This document shows, one piece after another, positions 6,223 through 30,522 of a stretch of 36,789 nucleotides of DNA. The DNA is from an uncultured Pseudomonadota bacterium (lineage in GTDB: Bacteria > Myxococcota_A > UBA796 > UBA9615). Location: the NCBI GenBank assembly GCA_937891735.1, contig CALAGR010000512.1, forward strand, positions 1 to 36,789, read 5' to 3'. The notes under the pieces were generated by a model. It made no database searches, was not told the DNA's origin, and saw only the letters and a program-made list of their open reading frames with translations. The translations under genes and the position numbers were made by a program. Every line of letters begins with the position of its first letter. The stretch's first letter is position 1.

Positions 6223-7650
6223 CTACAACCTCTTGAAGTTGAAATCTCCATCGCCCAGGGTGTCGCTCTCCTCCACCCCGAACCCGTGGTGCCGGCACAG
6301 CGAAATCGCGTAGGGCGCGATGGGCACCCCGGCCAGCTCGTCGTACCCCCGGTAGCGGTCCGTGTCCGCGTCGAGCAGGTACTCCAGCACGGCCCGGGCC
6401 TCCTGCTGCATGCCCGCCCAGGACATGCCCACGATGGCGTAGGCCCCGTCCCGCGGCCACGCGTACGTCCACTGTCCCGGCGGCAGGCTCGCGAGCACCC
6501 CGCCCGCCGCTGCGTGCTGCACCATCGCCGGGAGCTGGGCCCCCGATCCGGTCCAGCGGGGCTCGCCGTCGGTGCTGAGCCACTGCCGCAGATACGCCTG
6601 CGTCTCCCGCACCTGGGCCATGCGCAGGACCACCGCGCTGTGCCGGTACAGCGCCTCCTCGTCCGGGGTCAGGTTCACAGGCACGCTCAGCCCGTCCTGG
6701 AAGGCCTGCCAGCTCGTCCGCTCCGCGGTGAGGATGGCCTCGATGGTGCGGCCACCGATCCACGTGTCCACGTCCGCAGACGCCGCGGCGTAGGCGAAGG
6801 GATCGCCGTGGTGGGCCATCACGAGCCCGAAACGCCCCGTCTCCCCGACCCCCAGAGCGCCGCTGTTCCATTGGTAGTAGGCCACGGAGTCGTCGTGCAC
6901 CCCCTGGTCGCCGGCCACGCCGACGAGATCCGTGCTGCCTCCGCCGTTGACGACTTCCCAGGGGTTCGGGCCGCTGGCGCCGGGGTACCAGACGCTGGCG
7001 GATACCGGCTCCCGGAGGGGCGCGGTGGCGATCACCCCGGCGAATCCACGCTCCTGCATGCGTCGCGTCGCTCCGTCCACGGAGATCGTCTCGTTCTGGG
7101 CCCCGATCTCCTGGGTGGGTCCCGGGCGGCCCTCCCCCAGGTGCAGGTTCTGGATCGAGAACACGCTGATGCCCCCGGTGGCCGCGCTGCCCACGTTCTG
7201 CACCTCCAGGGCCAGCGCCATCGCCGAGCGCTCCAGCCCCCAGGGCGCCCAGGCCCAGGTGGTCAAGCGCAGGTCGCCCAGGCTCTGGACCATCTGCACC
7301 ACGTTCGTGCCGGGCAGCCAGCCGCTGGCGTCCAGATCCACCGGCAGGTCCGTCAGCCAGCGCTGCTCGCCGTCCACCCGGACCCCGAAGTAGGCGTCGA
7401 ACAGCAGGTCCCGGGAGGGCACCGCCTGCGGAAGCCCGCCGCTCCAGACCTCGACCCCGGCCGCGTCCCAGCGCGGCTCCTCGGTGGCGAACAGGTGGTC
7501 GCGCCAGTGATGGACCCGCGCCTGCTGCAGATCGAGCACGACCGCTCCCCACCCGTTACTCGAGGGCAGATCGAAGAAGCTGCGGTGGGGCTCCGCGGCG
7601 GACGCGGAGGCCGCCCTGAGCAGGACGAGGCCGACCAGGATGGTGCGCAT
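6223..7650 (-). pseudogene. Secreted GH15 (glucoamylase)-like protein, C-terminally truncated
   Basis: Signal peptide 'MRTILVGLVLLRAASASAAEP'. GH15-like '..GQWTYAWPRDGAYAIVGMSWAGMQQEARAVLEYLLDAD..' ends at 'GDGDFNFKRL*', where GH15 catalytic domains would continue. No GH15-like continuation seen in other frames downstream. Confidence 0.6.
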
Positions 7651-19449: not shown

Positions 19450-20422
19450 CCCGTCGGGCCACGACCATCACGATGTCGCCCTGCCAGCGGTTGAGCAGCG
19501 GGCCCAGGGTCGCGTCGAAGAGCAGCACGAAGGGCATCCCCAGGAGCCCCGCGGCCCAGCTCACCCCCTTCATCAGGGGGTTGTTCGCGAAGCGGCTGCG
19601 ACGGCCCAGCGTGTTCTGCACGCGGTGCACCCAGGACGCCGAGAGGGTGAGCGGGTAACCACTCACGCCCCAGCTCACGGGCTCCAGCCCCGCCGCGCGC
19701 AGCGCCCGCTCCAGGCCCGGGCGGGAGAACAGGTGCACATGCTGGGGCGGCAGATGCGGCCACCACCAGCGGCCCAGCAGGCGGATCCCCCAGCCGTCCC
19801 CCCGGGGCACCTCGACCTCCACCAGCCCACCCTCACGCACCAGGCTCGCGGCGTGGGCGAGGGCCTGCTCGGGTCGCGGATGGTGCTCGAGGAAGTGGTT
19901 CATGGACACGACGTCGGCGGGCGCCTCGAGCGTGACGTCGTCGAACAGCCGACGGATCACGCGGGGTCCCGACCCTGCCCCGAGCGCCTGCTCCAGGCGC
20001 GCTTCGGTCGCGTCCGCCGCCGGGCCGCCCAACTCGACGCCCTGCGCATCGGTGGTGCCCAGCGCGACGGCGAGCTCGCTGAGGAAGTGGCCCAGCCCAC
20101 AGCCCACGTCCAGGATCCGGACCGGCCCCTCCGAGTCCAGCGCCGCCACCACGGCCGCGATCCGCGCCCGGCGCAGCCCCCGGTCGAACCCCGACTCGTT
20201 CGCCTTGCGCATCACCTCGAGGTTCTCGGGCGTGTAGAGCTGCCCGTAGAACTCCGCCAGGACCGCCGCGTCGGGCATCGGGGCGAGGGTGCCATGTCCG
20301 CAGGCGCACCGCGCGAACGTCCAGGTGCCCTGCCCGTGCAGGACGAGGTCCCGAACGGGATAGGCCGCGGTGGCCTCATTGGCGCCACACACGGGACACG
20401 GAGGGGTGCTGACGGTGCTCAC
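19424..20422 (-). CDS. Class I SAM-dependent methyltransferase with N-terminal zinc-ribbon-like CPVC module
   Basis: '[18 protein letters not shown]', SAM motif '[18 protein letters not shown]', '[15 protein letters not shown]'. GTG start 20422 overlaps the upstream stop as GTGA. Confidence 0.88.
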
Positions 20423-21927
20423 GGCGCGGATCGTACCGGTCCCTGCCGCCAACGCAGGCGGCGCAGCAGCGTGTTGCGGCCGATCCCCAGCCGACGGGCG
20501 GCCTCGGAGTGGTTTCCGCCGCAGGCCTGCACGGCGTCGGCGACGTAGTCCGACACCACCTCCCGCAGGGGGCGAATCGCGTCGGGGCGCCCGGGGCGTG
20601 GTGCCGCCACCGGTGGGGGCACGGGCGTGCTCCCCTTCGCCCCCCGCAGCTCCAGGTCCGCGACGCCGATCCGCTCCCCCGGGGCCAGCACCACCCCGGA
20701 CTCCACGGCGTGCTCGAGCTCCCGCACGTTCCCGGGCCACCCGTGTCCGTGCAGCCGCGCCCTCGCCTCAGGGGTCAGCCGCATGCCGGACCGACCGTAC
20801 TTGCGGGCCGCCTCGAACAGGAAGTGGTCGATCAGTCGATCCAGATCCGCGTGGTCCCGCTCCCGAAGCGGCGGGACCCGGATCTCCACCACCCGAAGGC
20901 GGTAGTACAGGTCCTGCCGGAACGTGCCCTGCTCGATCCGCTCCTCCAGATCCTGGTGCGTGGCCGCCACCACCCGCAGATCCGCGGTGTGCAGGGCCGT
21001 CCCCCCCACGCGGAACCAGGTCCGGTCCTGCAGGAGCCGCAGCAGCCGGCTCTGGGCTGCGATGGGCAGCTCTGCGATCTCATCGAGGAACAGCGTGCCG
21101 CCGTCCGCCGCCGCCACCTTGCCGTCCACCGCCTCCCCGGCGCCGGTGAAGGCGCCCCGCTCGTGGCCGAACAGCTCGTTCTCCACCAGCCCCCCGGGCA
21201 GCGCGCCGCAGTCCACCTTGATGAACGGCCCCTGGGCGCGGGGTGAGTTGTGGTGCACGGCCCGCGCGATCAGCTCCTTGCCGCTGCCGCTCTCTCCCAG
21301 CACGAGCACGGTGGCCTGGGTGCGGCTCGCCCGCTGCGCCCGGTCGTACACCCGCTGCATCGCCGCCGACTCTCCGACGATGCCGTTGAAACGGAACGAG
21401 AGGGGCCGGGCACCCTCCCGGAGCTGGCTCCACAGGGACGTCGCGTCGAGCAGGCGACCCAGCTCGATGGCCGTGATCTCCAGCTCACGCCGGTCGCCAG
21501 CGCCGAAGCGCCCGTGCAGTCGATTGAGGACCTGGACCACGCCCACCAGCTCCCCATCCGGGGTGCGGATCGCCGCGGCCATCAGCGAGTCGGTGCGGTA
21601 GCCGGTCAGGGCGTCGTAGCGGGCCGCGAACCGCTCGTCGGCGGCGGCGGTGTTGACCACCACGGTCTCGCCGGTGCGCGCGACCTCGCCGGCGATGCCC
21701 TCCCCCACGGCAAGGCGGATCTCCTGGTTGGACAGCGCGGTGGCGACCCGGCTGATCAGCTCGCCCCGGGCGCGATCCAGCAGGTACAGCGTCGCTCGGT
21801 CCGATCCCAGGTGCTCCGCGACCCCGAGCATCAGGACGGCGAGCAGCTCGTCGAGATCGACCGGCGCCGCGCCGAGGTCGGCGGTGACCCGTGCGATCCG
21901 TTTCGGATCATATGAGGCGGTCTTCAT
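20419..21927 (-). CDS. Sigma54-dependent transcriptional activator: GAF + AAA+ + Fis-type HTH
   Basis: '[16 protein letters not shown]', '[10 protein letters not shown]', '[13 protein letters not shown]', '[16 protein letters not shown]', C-terminal '[23 protein letters not shown]'; N-terminal GAF-like region. Confidence 0.95.
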
Positions 21928-22005
21928 CGATCCACTATGAACCACCTGGACGATTCTGGCGCACATCGATCTGCCCGATTCGCACGACGCCGCACCGTGG
22001 CCGCG

Positions 22006-22021
22006 TTGGCACGGCCATTGC
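22006..22021 (+). promoter_or_regulatory. Sigma54 (-24/-12) promoter
   Basis: TTGGCACGGCCATTGC matches the consensus YTGGCACGrNNNTTGC; GG-to-GC spacing is correct and an SD 'aaggagaggag' lies ~20 nt downstream. Confidence 0.88.
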
Positions 22022-22057
22022 TCTCCCGAGGTGGGCCCGAAGGAGAGGAGTCCACCC

Positions 22058-22252
22058 ATGACGGATCACACCCACCTGCTCACCAACGCCATCGCCGGCC
22101 TGCGCGGCGGGGGCCCGACGCCGCCCGACGAACCCCTGAGCCCTGAAGACGCGATGGCCCTGGCCGCGTTCCTCATCGCGGAGCTGGCTCCCCTCCGCGA
22201 GACACGGCTGGACATCGCCACCTTGAGGAGGGACCCGGAGCCAGAGGGCTGA
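22058..22252 (+). CDS. Small protein (64 aa) under a sigma54 promoter; function unknown
   Basis: ATG 22058 directly after a strong SD (22040-22050), '[64 protein letters not shown]'. Confidence 0.75.
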
Positions 22253-22330: not shown

Positions 22331-23512
22331 ATGGCAGGTGTATTCGGGCGACTGAAGGGATGGGGCGCAGCGCCCGGGGGGACCCCTGCGCCGGTCGAGG
22401 CCCCGGCCCCTGGATCCGACGGGCTCGTCACCGCGGATGCAGGGCTCGACGCCGCCCTGGACACGCTCGCCTCGGTGCTGCGTTCCTACGGCCGGGCCGC
22501 CCTGGACACGGAGACGGCCACCGCCGAGAGCATTGACGAACGCTGTGAGTCCTGGGCCCGCCACGTCCTGAACGGCTCCCCGATCCCGGGCCCGCACGGC
22601 GCGTCGCCGACCGACGAAGAGCCGGCCCCGGTGCCCGTGGAGCAGCGCGCGTGGGCCCCCTTGCGCAGGTTCTTCCGGGACCAGCGGCAGGGGGAGGTGG
22701 CCCACCACGGGCAGGTCGGAACCACGCTGCGGGGCACCGTCCTGGAGCTCGTGGACGTCGTCTACAAGGCCTTCGAGGACGGACGCGGGGTGGACGAGGA
22801 GCTCAGCGCGCGGGCCTGTGAGCTTCGGGCGGCCCTCGCCAGCGAGGACGTCACGACCCTGCGCACCGCGGCCCAACGGGTGACCGCATCCCTGGAGCAG
22901 AGCCTGGAGCGCCGGGAGGCCATTCACGAGCGGGCCGTGAAGTCCCTGGGGCGCCGGCTCCGGGTGGTCCGGGACCAGCTCAAGGAGGCCACCCGGGCCG
23001 CGGAGGTGGATGCCCTCACGGGGCTGGCCAACCGCGCCGCGCTGGACCGGCGCATCGAGGCGAGCATCACCCTGAGCCGCTTCACCGGCCAGCCCGAGTG
23101 CCTGCTCATGCTCGACATCGATCACTTCAAGACCGTCAACGACACCCACGGCCACCGGGTCGGCGACCGGGTGCTCGCCGAGATCGGCGCCTGCCTCGCG
23201 CGCACCGTCATCCGCCGCAGTGACTTCGTGGCCCGTTATGGCGGCGAGGAGTTCTCGGTGGTGCTGAGCGACACCGACTCCGAGCAGGCCGTGTCCGTCG
23301 GGGAGCGGGTGCTGCGGGACATCCGGGCGCTCCGCGTGCCCCTGGAGGGCGGTGGGAGCCTGTCCGTGACGGCGAGCCTGGGCCTCGCGGACCTGCGCAG
23401 CGACGACGACGCGCCGAGCTGGATCGACGCGGCGGATCGCGCGATGTACCGCGCGAAGGATGAGGGCCGCGACCAGCTCTGCGTTCGGGGGTCCACGTCG
23501 GGCGGGCGCTAG
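22331..23512 (+). CDS. Soluble diguanylate cyclase (GGDEF)
   Basis: 'DALTGLANRAALDRRI', 'LLMLDIDHFKTVNDTHGH', 'RRSDFVARYGGEEFSVVL': active-site GGEEF plus an upstream RxxD I-site. No TM segment. Confidence 0.95.
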   Translation: MAGVFGRLKGWGAAPGGTPAPVEAPAPGSDGLVTADAGLDAALDTLASVLRSYGRAALDTETATAESIDERCESWARHVLNGSPIPGPHGASPTDEEPAPVPVEQRAWAPLRRFFRDQRQGEVAHHGQVGTTLRGTVLELVDVVYKAFEDGRGVDEELSARACELRAALASEDVTTLRTAAQRVTASLEQSLERREAIHERAVKSLGRRLRVVRDQLKEATRAAEVDALTGLANRAALDRRIEASITLSRFTGQPECLLMLDIDHFKTVNDTHGHRVGDRVLAEIGACLARTVIRRSDFVARYGGEEFSVVLSDTDSEQAVSVGERVLRDIRALRVPLEGGGSLSVTASLGLADLRSDDDAPSWIDAADRAMYRAKDEGRDQLCVRGSTSGGR

Positions 23513-23521
23513 ACTGCCGGC

Positions 23522-24562
23522 GTGCCGCCCGTCCACCGCAGCGAATCGCCCCTGTGGCAGGTCACCCGCGAGCCGCTGATCCACCAGCTGCTGGGCTACC
23601 TGACCGACGCGCGCCGACGCATCGACGAGGGCCCCGGGCCCCACCGGCTCGAGTTCAGCCGCAGCCGCATCGCCGAGGTCGAGCACGCCTACCGCCGCAT
23701 GGTCCGACAGGGCGAGGAGCGCCTGCATCGGCTGGGGCAGCTGATGTGCGACTCCCTGTTCGAGGCGGGCCGCGATCTGGACAGCGTGGTGGTGGGCGAG
23801 GTGGTGGCCACCGGGCGCCGGTTCACCCTCACGCAGCCCCTGAGTGAAGCGGACCTCTTCGGACTCACGGACCTGGAGCTGGGGGACCGCGTCCTGCGCC
23901 GGGTCGCCATCGACGGAGGCGCCTGCCGCCTGATCGCGAACCGGGTCGAGTACCTGCCCCACCGCGAGAACCCCTTCGGAGTGCACAAGCTCGTGTGCCG
24001 GGTGAAGGCCGAAGAGGAGCTGTGGAACAAGGTCATCGACGAGCTGTTCGACCTCGACTCCATCGTGCAGCGCGACAAGGAGCTGCGGCACCTGTCCAGG
24101 TACGTCAAGGACGTCTTCGGGCTCAAGTTCGTGGTCAGCAACGAGCAGCAGGTGCTCGCGCTCCAGCGCCACCTCACGGACCTGCGCTGGAGCCGCGACG
24201 CCCTGTCCGAGCGGGAGATCCCCGCCAGCGACGACACCGTGCGCCTGCACTTCCTGGAGACGAAGGACTACCTGAGCCGGAGCAAGTCCTCGGGATGGAC
24301 GGCGGTGAAGTCCGTCGTGCGCTGGTGGGATGGGCTCTTCGAGATCCAGGTGCAGCCGCTGGTCAACTACTACCGTGAGCGGGAGCGGCTCACGCGCGAG
24401 AGTCACCAGGCTCACAAGCAGCGCCGGGACCTGCTGCGGGAGCAGGTCGGGGAGCGACTCCCCCTGCTCACGTTCACCCGCCAGCTCCTTCAGTGGCTCT
24501 TCACGGGAGCCCAGGGAGCGCCGCCGGAGCACCCGGGAGTGCAGATCGTGGTGGGGCCCTAG
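23522..24562 (+). CDS. Divergent RelA/SpoT-like (alarmone synthetase fold) protein
   Basis: GTG 23522. Ordered motif set 'CRVK...[15 protein letters not shown]...[21 protein letters not shown]...FEIQVQP...ESHQAHKQ' parallels RelA/SpoT 'RVK..DiaGlRi..DYI..K.sGYrSyH..EIQIRT..EH..YK'. Confidence 0.65.
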
Positions 24563-24722: not shown

Positions 24723-25577
24723 ATGGCAGGCAGCCGTCGTGAGAACCGCATCCTCGACCACTACCTCAAGGTAATGGGGGCCCATCCCCTCATGAACCGC
24801 GCCGACGAGTACGAGACAGGGCGCTTGATCATGGAAGGCACCCCCGTGGAGAAGATCCGCGCGCGGGAGAAGATGATCAACTGCAACCTGCGCCTCGTCG
24901 TGCACATCGCGAAGCAGTACGGCTACCGGGGCATGCCCCTGTCCGACCTGATCCAGGAGGGCAACATCGGGCTGATGCGCGCCGCGGAGAAGTTCGAGTA
25001 CCACCGCGGGTTCAAGTTCAGCACCTACGCCACCTGGTGGATCCGGCAGGCCATCGTGCGGGGCATCGAGTCCAGCTGCCGCACCATCCGCGTGCCCGTC
25101 TACAAGGTCGGCCTGATGAACTCCGTGCGCCAGAAGGGCAAGGAGATGGCCGGGATCCTCGGACGGGAGCCCAGCCGCGAAGAGCTCGCCGCAGAGATGC
25201 ACATGGAGCTCGGTGAGCTCGAGGACCTGCTGGGCATGGGGCGTGATCCCGTGAGCCTGGACAAGCCCGTGGGCGAAGACGGCACGACCTCGCTGGGCGA
25301 GCTGATCGCCTCCGACGCGGAGATGCCCGACAAGGCGCTCGTGGTGGAGGCGCTGCAGGATCAGGTGTTTCGCGCCCTCGCGACCCTGACCCCCCGGGAG
25401 GAGCAGGTGCTCCGGCTGCGCTACGGCATGGACGAAGGCGACGCCCTGTCCCTGGAGAAGATCGGCCGCGAATTCAGCCTCACCCGGGAGCGGATCCGGC
25501 AGATCGAGCTCCGGGCGTTGGAGAAGCTGCGCGGCACCAAGCGCCAGCACTACCTCGCGGACTTCGCGGTCGCCTGA
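24723..25577 (+). CDS. Sigma70-family (group 2, RpoD/RpoS-like) RNA polymerase sigma factor
   Basis: '[57 protein letters not shown]', '[15 protein letters not shown]', '[20 protein letters not shown]'. Confidence 0.95.
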
Positions 25578-25600: not shown

Positions 25601-27001
25601 GTGGCCGGACCGGACACCACCTTCGACGTCGCAGAGACCCGCTCCCTGCACGCCCACCTCCCGGCGGATCTGTCGATCTCCCGGCTGCTCGTGGCGTGGT
25701 CGCCGGACGCGGACCAGGTGGGGCGCGCGGTGGCGCTGGAGTCGAGCCCGGTGCGCATCGGTCGCCGCTCCAAGAAGAGCGGACCGGAGCTCCAGCTCGC
25801 CGACGCCGCCGTGTCCCGCGAGCACGCGGTGGTCGAGCCGGCCCAGGGGGGCTGGCAGGTCCGAAACCTCGGCAGCCGGAACGGCACCTGGGTGCACGGT
25901 CAGCTCCGGGACGTGCAGGTCCTGAGCCACGGCACCGTGATCCGCATCGGCGAGACCCTGCTGCTGTTCCAGGAGCTGACCGTCAAGCTGAACGAGCGCC
26001 TGCTCGCCGAGGTCGCACCCCTCATGGGCCCGTCCCTGGCCATGGAGCGGGTGCGCGGGCAGGTCGCCGACGTCGCCCGGTCCGACATCCCCGTCCTGGT
26101 GACCGGGCCCTCCGGCACCGGCAAGGAGCTCGTCGCCGCCGAGGTGCACAAGCGATCCGGGCGGCGCGGGGCCTTCGTGCCCGTCAACTGCGGGGCGCTC
26201 CCGCGGGAGCTGGTGGAGAGCGAGCTGTTCGGACACGTGGACGGCGCCTTCACGGGGGCCCGCAAGGCGGCCCCAGGCCTGTTCCGGGCGGCCGACGGCG
26301 GCACGCTGTTCCTCGACGAGATCGGTGAGCTGCCCCTGGAGATGCAGCCGCGGCTGCTGCGCGTGCTGGCCACCGGCGAGATCCGCCCGGTGGGCTCGGA
26401 GCGGGCGACCCGGGTCGATGCGCGGGTCGTCGCCGCCACCAACCGCGACCCCGAGGGCGACGTCGCCGCGGGCACCTTCCGCGGGGACCTGCTGGCGCGC
26501 CTGTCGGGGTGGCGGATCCACATGCCCACGCTCCGGCAGCGCCGGTCGGACGTGCTCCCCATCGCGCGCCACTTCGCGGACGGGCGACTCATCCTCACCG
26601 CCGACGCCGCCGAGGCGCTGCTGCTTCACGACTGGCCCTGGAACGTCCGGGAGCTGGAGCAGACCATCCGGGCCAGCCGGGTGCGCGCCGGCAGCGGGCC
26701 CCTGACCCTGGAGCACCTGCCGGAGGCGATCCGCGAGCCCCTCGACGCGCGACACCGCGCGATGGATCAGAGGGTGACCGACGCCCTGCCCCCGGTGAGC
26801 GTGCAGGCGCCGGCGCGGATGCCCCCGGCGCTCAGCGTGCCCCGGGACCGCACCCCCGACGCGGCGGATCTGCGGCGGGTGCTCGACTGGTACGAAGGCA
26901 ACGTCTCGCAGGTGGCGGCGTTCTTCGGCAAGGAGCGGGCCCAGGTGTATCGCTGGGCGCGCCGGCTCGAGATCGACCCCACCGACTTCCGCAAAGCATG
27001 A
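25601..27001 (+). CDS. FHA-domain sigma54-dependent activator
   Basis: FHA signature 'VRIGRRSKKSGPELQLADAAVSREHAVVE...VRNLGSRNGTWVHG'; AAA+ 'GPSGTGKELVAAEVH', 'GAFTGA', '[13 protein letters not shown]', 'WPWNVRELEQ'; C-terminal HTH. Confidence 0.94.
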   Translation: MAGPDTTFDVAETRSLHAHLPADLSISRLLVAWSPDADQVGRAVALESSPVRIGRRSKKSGPELQLADAAVSREHAVVEPAQGGWQVRNLGSRNGTWVHGQLRDVQVLSHGTVIRIGETLLLFQELTVKLNERLLAEVAPLMGPSLAMERVRGQVADVARSDIPVLVTGPSGTGKELVAAEVHKRSGRRGAFVPVNCGALPRELVESELFGHVDGAFTGARKAAPGLFRAADGGTLFLDEIGELPLEMQPRLLRVLATGEIRPVGSERATRVDARVVAATNRDPEGDVAAGTFRGDLLARLSGWRIHMPTLRQRRSDVLPIARHFADGRLILTADAAEALLLHDWPWNVRELEQTIRASRVRAGSGPLTLEHLPEAIREPLDARHRAMDQRVTDALPPVSVQAPARMPPALSVPRDRTPDAADLRRVLDWYEGNVSQVAAFFGKERAQVYRWARRLEIDPTDFRKA

Positions 27002-28713: not shown

Positions 28714-30483
28714 TCAGACTTCGGCGTGGGTCACGTCCTTGCGAAGGAGCCGGACGGTGCCGCGGGTCAGCGCCAGCATCCCGGCGTCCCCGGCGTTCAG
28801 ATCGGCGGCGTTCGCCTCGTCGGTGTCGATGTGCATCTCGAGCAGGTAGCTGCTCTTGACGCGCACCAGCACGTCCCCGAAGACCAGATCCCGGGCCTCG
28901 GAGTCCACCGCCACGCTGACCACGTCACCGTCCTTCACGCCGTAGTGCTCGGCGTCCTCGGGCTGCATGTGGATGTGTCGCCAGGCCTGGACCACGCCCT
29001 CTTCGAGGGTGAGCCGCCCCGCCGGACCCTGCAGGGTGATGCCGGGGCTGTTGGCGACCTGGCCCGAGCGTCGGATGGGCGCATCCAGGCCCAACGCGTA
29101 CTCGTCCGTGCGCGAGACCTCGATCTGGCAGTCCCGCCGCACGGGTCCGATGATCCCGACCCGCTCGATGCTGCCGCGGGGCCCATGCAGCGTCACGCGC
29201 TCCTCGCACGCGAACTGGCCCGGCTGGGACAGCCACTTGCGGGGCGTGAGCTTGCCGTCCGGGCCGAAGAGCGCCTTGACCGCGTCCTGCGTCAGGTGCA
29301 CGTGACGAGCCGACACGGCGATGGGGATCGGCTTGTGGGCCCCCACCGCGCCCAGGTCGAGCACCATGCGCGCGACGTCCCGGGCGATGGCGTGAGCCTC
29401 GTCGGTCTTCACCACGAGGATCCGGCAGCGGGCGTGGGGCGGGCTGATCTCCACCACCGGAGCGTCCCGGGTGACCTCGCAGTCCCGGTTGAGTTCCTCG
29501 TCCAGACGCGCACCCAGGAACTCCAGCCGCTGGGCCGTTCGGTGGCGCACCAGGGCGCTGTTCTCGCCGATCCCCGCCGTGAACACGATCGCGTCCACGC
29601 CGCCCATGACCGCGGCGTAGGCGCCGATGTACTTGCGCAGGCGGTGACAGAACGCGTGCAGCGCGGCCCGGCATCGATCGTCGCCGTTCGCGGCGGCCTC
29701 CTCGATGTCCCGCATGTCGTTGCCGATCCCGCTCAGGCCCGCCAGACCGGACTCCTTGTTGAGGATCCGGTCGAGCCCGTCGGCGTCCAGGCCCTCCTGC
29801 CGCACCAGGTGCAGCAGGACGCCGGGGTCCACGTCCCCGGAGCGCGTGCCCATCACCAGCCCCTCGAGCGGGGTCATGCCCATCGACGTCTCGACGCTGC
29901 GGCCGTACTCGACGGCGGTGGCCGAGGCCCCGTTGCCCAGGTGGCAGGTGATGATGCGCAGTTCCTCGAGCGCGGCCCCGAGGTGCTCCGCGGCGCGCTC
30001 CGCCACGTACTTGTGCGACGGCCCGTGGAACCCGTACCGCCGGATCCCGTGCTTCTCCGCGAGGGCCAGGGGCAAGGCGTAGCGACGCGCGCGGTTGGGC
30101 AGGGTCGCGTGAAACGCGGTGTCGAAGACCGCCACATGAGGCACGTCGGGCAGGACGGCCCGCGCCGCGGCGACGCCCGCGAGGTTGGCGGGCACGTGCA
30201 GCGGAGCCAGCGGGATCAGGCCCCGGATCGCGTCCGTGACCGCGTCGTCGAGGTGGGTGGGGGACGTGAACAGCTCACCGCCGTGCACCACCCGATGCCC
30301 GACCGCGGCCAGCTTCACGCCGCCGGACGCGAGCAGGGCCGGAAGGGCCCCCTCCAGCGCCGCCTGGTGCCCTCCTGCGGGGATCCGCTCCACCGTGGAC
30401 TCCGCCGCGCGCGCGCCGGTGGCAGGCTCGACGATGCACAGCTTCAAGGAGCTGCTGCCAGCGTTGACTACGAGGACATGCAT
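28714..30483 (-). CDS. Acetate kinase - PduL-type phosphotransacylase fusion
   Basis: N-terminal AckA 'VLVVNAGSSSLKLCIV', 'AVFDTAFHATLP', 'RRYGFHGPSHKYV', 'CHLGNGAS', 'VFTAGIGENS'; C-terminal PduL 'PIAVSARHVHLTQDAVKALFG', 'RVGIIGPVRRDCQIEVSRTDEYALG', 'HIHMQPEDAEHYGVKDGD', 'EMHIDTDEANAA'. Confidence 0.93.
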   Translation of the reverse strand: MHVLVVNAGSSSLKLCIVEPATGARAAESTVERIPAGGHQAALEGALPALLASGGVKLAAVGHRVVHGGELFTSPTHLDDAVTDAIRGLIPLAPLHVPANLAGVAAARAVLPDVPHVAVFDTAFHATLPNRARRYALPLALAEKHGIRRYGFHGPSHKYVAERAAEHLGAALEELRIITCHLGNGASATAVEYGRSVETSMGMTPLEGLVMGTRSGDVDPGVLLHLVRQEGLDADGLDRILNKESGLAGLSGIGNDMRDIEEAAANGDDRCRAALHAFCHRLRKYIGAYAAVMGGVDAIVFTAGIGENSALVRHRTAQRLEFLGARLDEELNRDCEVTRDAPVVEISPPHARCRILVVKTDEAHAIARDVARMVLDLGAVGAHKPIPIAVSARHVHLTQDAVKALFGPDGKLTPRKWLSQPGQFACEERVTLHGPRGSIERVGIIGPVRRDCQIEVSRTDEYALGLDAPIRRSGQVANSPGITLQGPAGRLTLEEGVVQAWRHIHMQPEDAEHYGVKDGDVVSVAVDSEARDLVFGDVLVRVKSSYLLEMHIDTDEANAADLNAGDAGMLALTRGTVRLLRKDVTHAEV

Positions 30484-30522
30484 GGGGACTCCGTGCAACG
30501 CCGGGCGGGATCGGCGCGGGAC

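Follow-up and report, generated by a model that had tools for sequence, protein, structure and literature searches.

Enzymes of the RelA/SpoT fold synthesize (p)ppGpp and (p)ppApp or pyrophosphorylate the ends of tRNAs. The closest described systems to the protein reported here are the small synthetases RelP and RelQ (SAS2 and SAS1), the long Rel proteins, and the toxic SAS FaRel2, CapRel and Tas1/Apk2. In SaRelP, AMPCPP is bound by R78 and R112 around the adenine, by K80, K88, R91 and S84 on the phosphates, and by H190 on the ribose, with Mg held on D107 and E174 (PMC5794853; PMC7983052). The motifs syn2, syn3 and syn4 set apart guanosine 3′-pyrophosphokinases (AVR, SxH, IR) from adenosine 3′-pyrophosphokinases (RYT, GxN, YH), and exchanging these motifs did not convert specificity (PMC12226406, 2025).

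The family described below shares with RelP and RelQ a SYNTH fold, by structure prediction, together with the Mg-binding Asp and Glu, the R-x-K...K donor motif, the ribose His and the lack of an HD domain. It differs from them in its length (346 aa, with a ~150-aa N-terminal domain), in a Glu for the donor-contacting Ser, in GWxAxK for GYRSLH, EIQVQP for EIQIRT and GxK for AxR, and in an extra segment that follows the first helix of the domain and precedes its second strand. Long Rel proteins are homologous to it at the profile level in the synthetase region; however, the family lacks their HD hydrolase, TGS and ACT domains and its syn2, syn3 and syn4 motifs are altered. The toxic SAS also have the SYNTH fold, some with extra domains and non-GTP acceptors, whereas the family is chromosomal and single copy, has no toxin-antitoxin context, and does not carry RYT/GxN/YH.

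We favor, with a probability of roughly 0.55, the reading that this family is an active new SYNTH subfamily with an acceptor site unlike that of the (p)ppGpp synthetases, acting as a stand-alone regulator. The family is new at the subfamily level, not at the fold level. A conserved chromosomal branch outside any toxin-antitoxin context, with its catalytic core intact and all three of its acceptor-specificity sites rewritten, offers a direct and inexpensive test of whether the RelA/SpoT fold makes further signal molecules, and the family is common in the Obscuribacterales, a little-studied group. The literature that we searched, which covered few subscription papers and not the toxSAS census, describes neither a cyclase/alarmone-synthetase pair nor such a family; an informal name may exist.

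The locus and its two genes

We analysed a 36,789-nt stretch of DNA (the window). The contig that encodes the cyclase and the RelA/SpoT-like protein, C512, is one of 542 in an assembly of 7.87 Mb. The two genes are laid out as follows.

22331-23512 (+): soluble diguanylate cyclase, 393 aa (PF00990, 3.4e-42; TIGR00254, 1.8e-46)
23213-23224 (+): RRSD inhibitory site of the cyclase, residues 295-298, read from the translation
23240-23254 (+): GGEEF active-site motif of the cyclase, residues 304-308, read from the translation
23513-23521 (+): intergenic gap of 9 nt from the cyclase stop to the GTG start, from the ORF reading
23522-24562 (+): RelA/SpoT-superfamily protein of an unnamed family, 346 aa, GTG start (Pfam, Foldseek, hhalign)
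23522-23980 (+): N-terminal domain, residues 1-153, family-specific (predicted structure, mean pLDDT 87.8)
23981-24457 (+): SYNTH-like (pyrophosphokinase) domain, about residues 154-312 (predicted strands and helices; Foldseek; hhalign)

The cyclase is an ordinary GGDEF protein, with both a GG[DE]EF motif and an RxxD I-site. Its GGDEF domain is C-terminal (residues 224-382) and its N-terminus matches no named family. Reading the translation directly places RRSD five residues ahead of GGEEF, at the canonical I-site spacing. The original prediction had proposed a soluble GGEEF cyclase with an intact RxxD I-site, followed 9 nt later on the same strand by a protein with RelA/SpoT motifs, and the domain matches and ORF coordinates agree with both parts. 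The GTG at 23522 is the sole in-frame start ahead of a conserved SPLW block, and no AGGAGG-type ribosome site was found ahead of it.

RelA_SpoT is the only Pfam match of the 346-aa protein, which has a SYNTH domain and no HD, TGS or ACT domain; the absence of an HD hydrolase had been predicted. The N-terminal domain is modeled with confidence and contains a small beta sheet, a single long helix and further helices that are short. Its fold gave no PDB match at E<=0.001 and its sequence gave only noise against Pfam. It had been described as an extension of ~120 aa that could not be named; no name emerged here either, and its length was revised to ~150 aa before the first SYNTH strand. Its conservation comes close to that of the catalytic domain (0.57 vs 0.64, as the mean fraction of the majority residue), and it would probably serve in signal sensing or acceptor recognition. 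No library that we searched names the ~350-aa family.

Membership in the RelA/SpoT superfamily

We place the 346-aa protein in the RelA/SpoT superfamily with near certainty. PF04607 was matched by all 35 aligned family members (best 1.6e-6) and was the top family in each; the window protein alone fell under the Pfam cut-off (E 0.021), and two Obscuribacterales-type members exceeded it when the whole frame was taken. In hhalign, a profile of 46 family members aligned to 28 long Rel/SAS with a score of 54.4 (P 7.8e-7), and the highest score among 20 column-shuffled control profiles was 18.7. The consistent PF04607 matches and a score far above the shuffled controls argue that the order of the motifs is not due to chance. 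These motifs run from R160-V-K162 through to ESHQAHK in the order originally listed, and only the exact letters of one of them, given as 'YVKD-x-GLKF', needed a small correction.

The AlphaFold2 model of the protein has a mean pLDDT of 83.9 and a pTM of 0.83. Foldseek against the PDB returned RSH proteins as its leading matches (RelQ, RelP, CapRel, SpoT and RelSeq; best entries 5ded, 6fgx and 6ewz; best probability 1.00), although the whole-chain superpositions are poor, with a TM by target of ~0.4 and an rmsd mostly of 9-18 Å. PF04607, Foldseek and the controlled hhalign comparison support the assignment to the RelA/SpoT fold. Searches of PDB sequences with the protein and with the family profile yielded no RSH match; SPT4/5 and OSCP had the best scores, which were at chance level, and were discarded. 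NCBIfam and PADLOC scans of the family gave noise only.

Catalytic and donor sites

The motifs of the synthetase domain align to SaRelP as follows.

23999-24031 (+): donor motif R160-x-K162-x7-K170, equivalent to SaRelP R78/K80/K88; R, K and K in 46/46 members
24110-24127 (+): syn2, from D197 (SaRelP D107, Mg-binding) to K202 (SaRelP R112), with GxK for AxR, by alignment
24263-24310 (+): syn3/G-loop, K248-D-Y250...K255-S-S-G258-W259-T-A261-V-K263, with AxK for SxH, by alignment
24341-24358 (+): syn4, E274-I-Q276-V-Q278-P (EIQVQP for EIQIRT), with E274 equivalent to SaRelP E174, by alignment
24404-24406 (+): H295, equivalent to the ribose-contacting SaRelP H190; His in 46/46 members

We examined the conservation of these residues across 46 family members, down to 27% identity. 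The equivalents of R160, K162, K170, D197, E274 and H295 are each invariant, so that the Mg-ligand Asp and Glu and the donor R-x-K...K expected of an RSH protein are present in every member, and the spacing of the donor motif (R+2=K, +10=K) is the same as in SaRelP. The donor site is nevertheless not fully canonical. SaRelP Ser84, which contacts the alpha-phosphate of the donor, corresponds to Glu166 in the window protein (43 Glu and 3 Gln in the family); among 28 long Rel/SAS from the same bacterial class, 27 have Ser there. SaRelP R112, the second Arg stacking on the adenine, is replaced by Lys in 46/46 members and is Arg in all 28 of those long Rel/SAS. We had also considered the change of SaRelP R91 to Asp (D173), and dropped it since this position varies in canonical Rel/SAS.

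Two of these changes bear on the suggestion in the original prediction that the protein could be a nucleotide sensor that lost its activity, i.e. a RelA/SpoT-fold protein that binds a nucleotide without transferring pyrophosphate. A Glu or Gln near the donor phosphates and a Lys for the R112 equivalent fit such a pseudoenzyme. However, one would expect drift in a degenerate site, and the Mg ligands, the phosphate-binding Lys pair, R160 and H295 do not vary among the 46 members, even at 27% identity, which favors an active enzyme and makes a pseudoenzyme improbable. We consider it likely, judging from this conservation pattern, that the protein is catalytically active. The other half of the suggestion, a divergent alarmone-type transferase, gains support from PF04607, Foldseek and hhalign, with the activity itself predicted from sequence.

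In the favored reading, an NTP would be bound through R160, K162, K170 and H295, as in RelP, RelQ and Rel, with Mg2+ held by D197 and E274. The beta-gamma pyrophosphate would then be moved to a hydroxyl of an acceptor that is stacked on W259 of the G-loop.

Acceptor-specificity sites

The acceptor side of the domain is altered throughout the family. The alterations of 'GYRSLH' and 'EIQIRT' that had been noted in the single protein are a family-wide pattern (GWxAxK and EIQVQP), and all 46 members have GxK at syn2, AxK at syn3 and [VIF]Q at syn4. The Rel/SAS comparison set has AxR/GxR, [SAG]xH and [IVF]R at these positions, and the 28 long Rel/SAS of the same class all have Arg, His and Arg at the three specificity sites. 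The guanine-stacking Tyr, present in 28/28 of the latter, is Trp in 45 family members and Phe in 1. The family thus carries neither the guanosine-type signature (AxR, SxH, [IV]R) nor the adenosine-type signature RYT/GxN/YH of (p)ppApp makers.

Since swapping the syn motifs failed to convert specificity (PMC12226406), the family signature indicates a different acceptor but does not prove it. The odds that the acceptor is something other than GDP or GTP are about even or slightly better. A pocket uniformly rebuilt as GxK, AxK and [VI]Q would make GDP or GTP in the standard pose improbable, and another nucleotide or an RNA end would be a plausible acceptor. Taken further, the family could represent a third RelA/SpoT pyrophosphokinase specificity class, neither (p)ppGpp nor (p)ppApp, with an undescribed 3′-pyrophosphorylated product or an RNA-end modification, and serve as a core single-copy regulator in the Obscuribacterales. 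We put this forward tentatively, as a possibility that the odds are against.

The changes could also be neutral drift in an old lineage of ordinary small alarmone synthetases, which use ATP with GTP, GDP or GMP to produce (p)ppGpp or pGpp. The fold and catalytic residues are those of RelP and RelQ, and we infer that Trp could stack guanine like Tyr and that Lys for His or Arg could bind phosphates. Yet all three specificity sites have changed and have since stayed fixed across 46 members from several phyla, all 28 same-class long Rel/SAS retain Arg, His and Arg, and the window's own genome already has a long Rel. An ordinary synthetase is therefore a fairly unlikely account of the family.

Distribution of the family

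In the species genomes of GTDB, a translated search recovered 36 related loci at 35-53% identity, and members are ~350 aa long. Of 379 genomes sampled from the window's phylum, 16 carry the family, as do 33 of the 194 from the class to which Obscuribacter phosphatis belongs, always in one copy. Its range is mainly the Obscuribacterales with scattered Myxococcota. One Thermoanaerobaculia MAG also has a member. Copies in Ignavibacteria MAGs group with Obscuribacterales sequences at 65-67% identity and so reflect transfer or mis-binning. In one Ignavibacteria copy (L037, 6001-7296), similarity is lost about two-thirds of the way along and resumes in another frame (6698-7033); an unreadable base lies nearby and the break is probably an assembly error. 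A divergent branch (L083, L084 and L085), confined to a single family (f45) within the window's phylum, is 26-35% identical to the rest; it keeps all catalytic residues and has Gln for Glu166 and EVQIQT for EIQVQP.

The window's own genome encodes a normal long Rel (L042; TIGR00691, 7.5e-228), as do 4 of the 5 other family-bearing genomes that we checked. This co-occurrence makes a simple stringent-response backup unlikely.

The distribution also bears on whether the protein is a toxic SAS, an effector that arrests growth or counters phages and either modifies tRNA or synthesizes (p)ppApp. The fold is related, CapRel is among the PDB matches and the N-terminal extension could bind tRNA; this domain, for which neither Pfam nor the solved folds gave a match, may instead have an antitoxin-like role. 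However, tblastn of plasmids and phages found no family member, the gene is single copy, PADLOC gave no match above noise, and the (p)ppApp signature is absent. No candidate antitoxin partner is conserved and the neighborhoods differ between clades. A toxic effector thus has little chance of being the right description, and a chromosomal, single-copy, stand-alone regulator would fit our favored reading of an active SYNTH subfamily.

Other RelA/SpoT-related proteins occur in these genomes. A TIGR04552 protein (L044, 958-2484, +; 2.9e-96) is encoded on contig C124 of the same genome (G000:C124:2509-3507). A profile of 31 TIGR04552 sequences aligned to the long Rel/SAS profile with an hhalign score of 56.3 (P 4e-7), and TIGR04552, named in a single paper of the literature searched, looks like a distant RelA/SpoT homologue too. 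Its model spans ~350 aa; its similarity to the family profile is at noise (score 18.5). It is near universal among the sampled relatives (35/39; absent in 14 control genomes), whereas the family is rare there. Further RelA_SpoT proteins of 326-391 aa (L067 in G004, L091, L092 and L095) are present in relatives and family-bearing genomes; none of them matches the profile of the family, and outside the synthetase region they look different.

Gene neighborhood

The common strand and the 9-nt gap make it plausible that the cyclase and the RelA/SpoT-like gene are co-transcribed here, which would fit a two-messenger operon in which both proteins have a joint function. The original prediction of a pairing with c-di-GMP synthesis was not borne out elsewhere. 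No cyclase homologue was found beside the 36 other family loci, and no GG[DE]EF ORF in 12 further neighborhoods extracted from the Myxococcota phylum. In a genome of the same genus (G001) and one of the same family (G003), unrelated genes adjoin the RelA/SpoT-like gene. A close orthologue of the cyclase is missing from the nearest relatives, the most similar cyclases in nearby genomes being 34-41% identical, and the window's genome has at least 4 other strong matches to its GGDEF domain. Because the pair occurs at no other locus examined, the same genus included, the case for c-di-GMP coupling is weak. We regard the cyclase as a lineage-specific neighbor and functional coupling to it as unlikely, with a dedicated two-messenger operon a long shot.

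Recurring neighbors of the family are clade-specific only (SufB-SufC-SufD, a Ser/Thr kinase, DUF4440 and ABC-F). An 'ABC' neighbor that seemed to recur at 18 loci was rejected, as it pooled SufC and ABC-F type proteins by their ABC domain.

After a gap of 160 nt, the RelA/SpoT-like gene is followed by the gene of a sigma-70-family sigma factor with regions 2, 3 and 4 (24723-25577, +) and then by that of an FHA-domain sigma-54 activator (25601-27001); a GAF sigma-54 activator (20419-22059) lies upstream on the opposite strand. At 28714-30498 (-), acetate kinase (PF00871, 8.3e-133) is fused to a PduL-type phosphate propanoyltransferase (PF06130, 6.3e-74), giving one polypeptide for both steps from acyl-CoA to the free acid.
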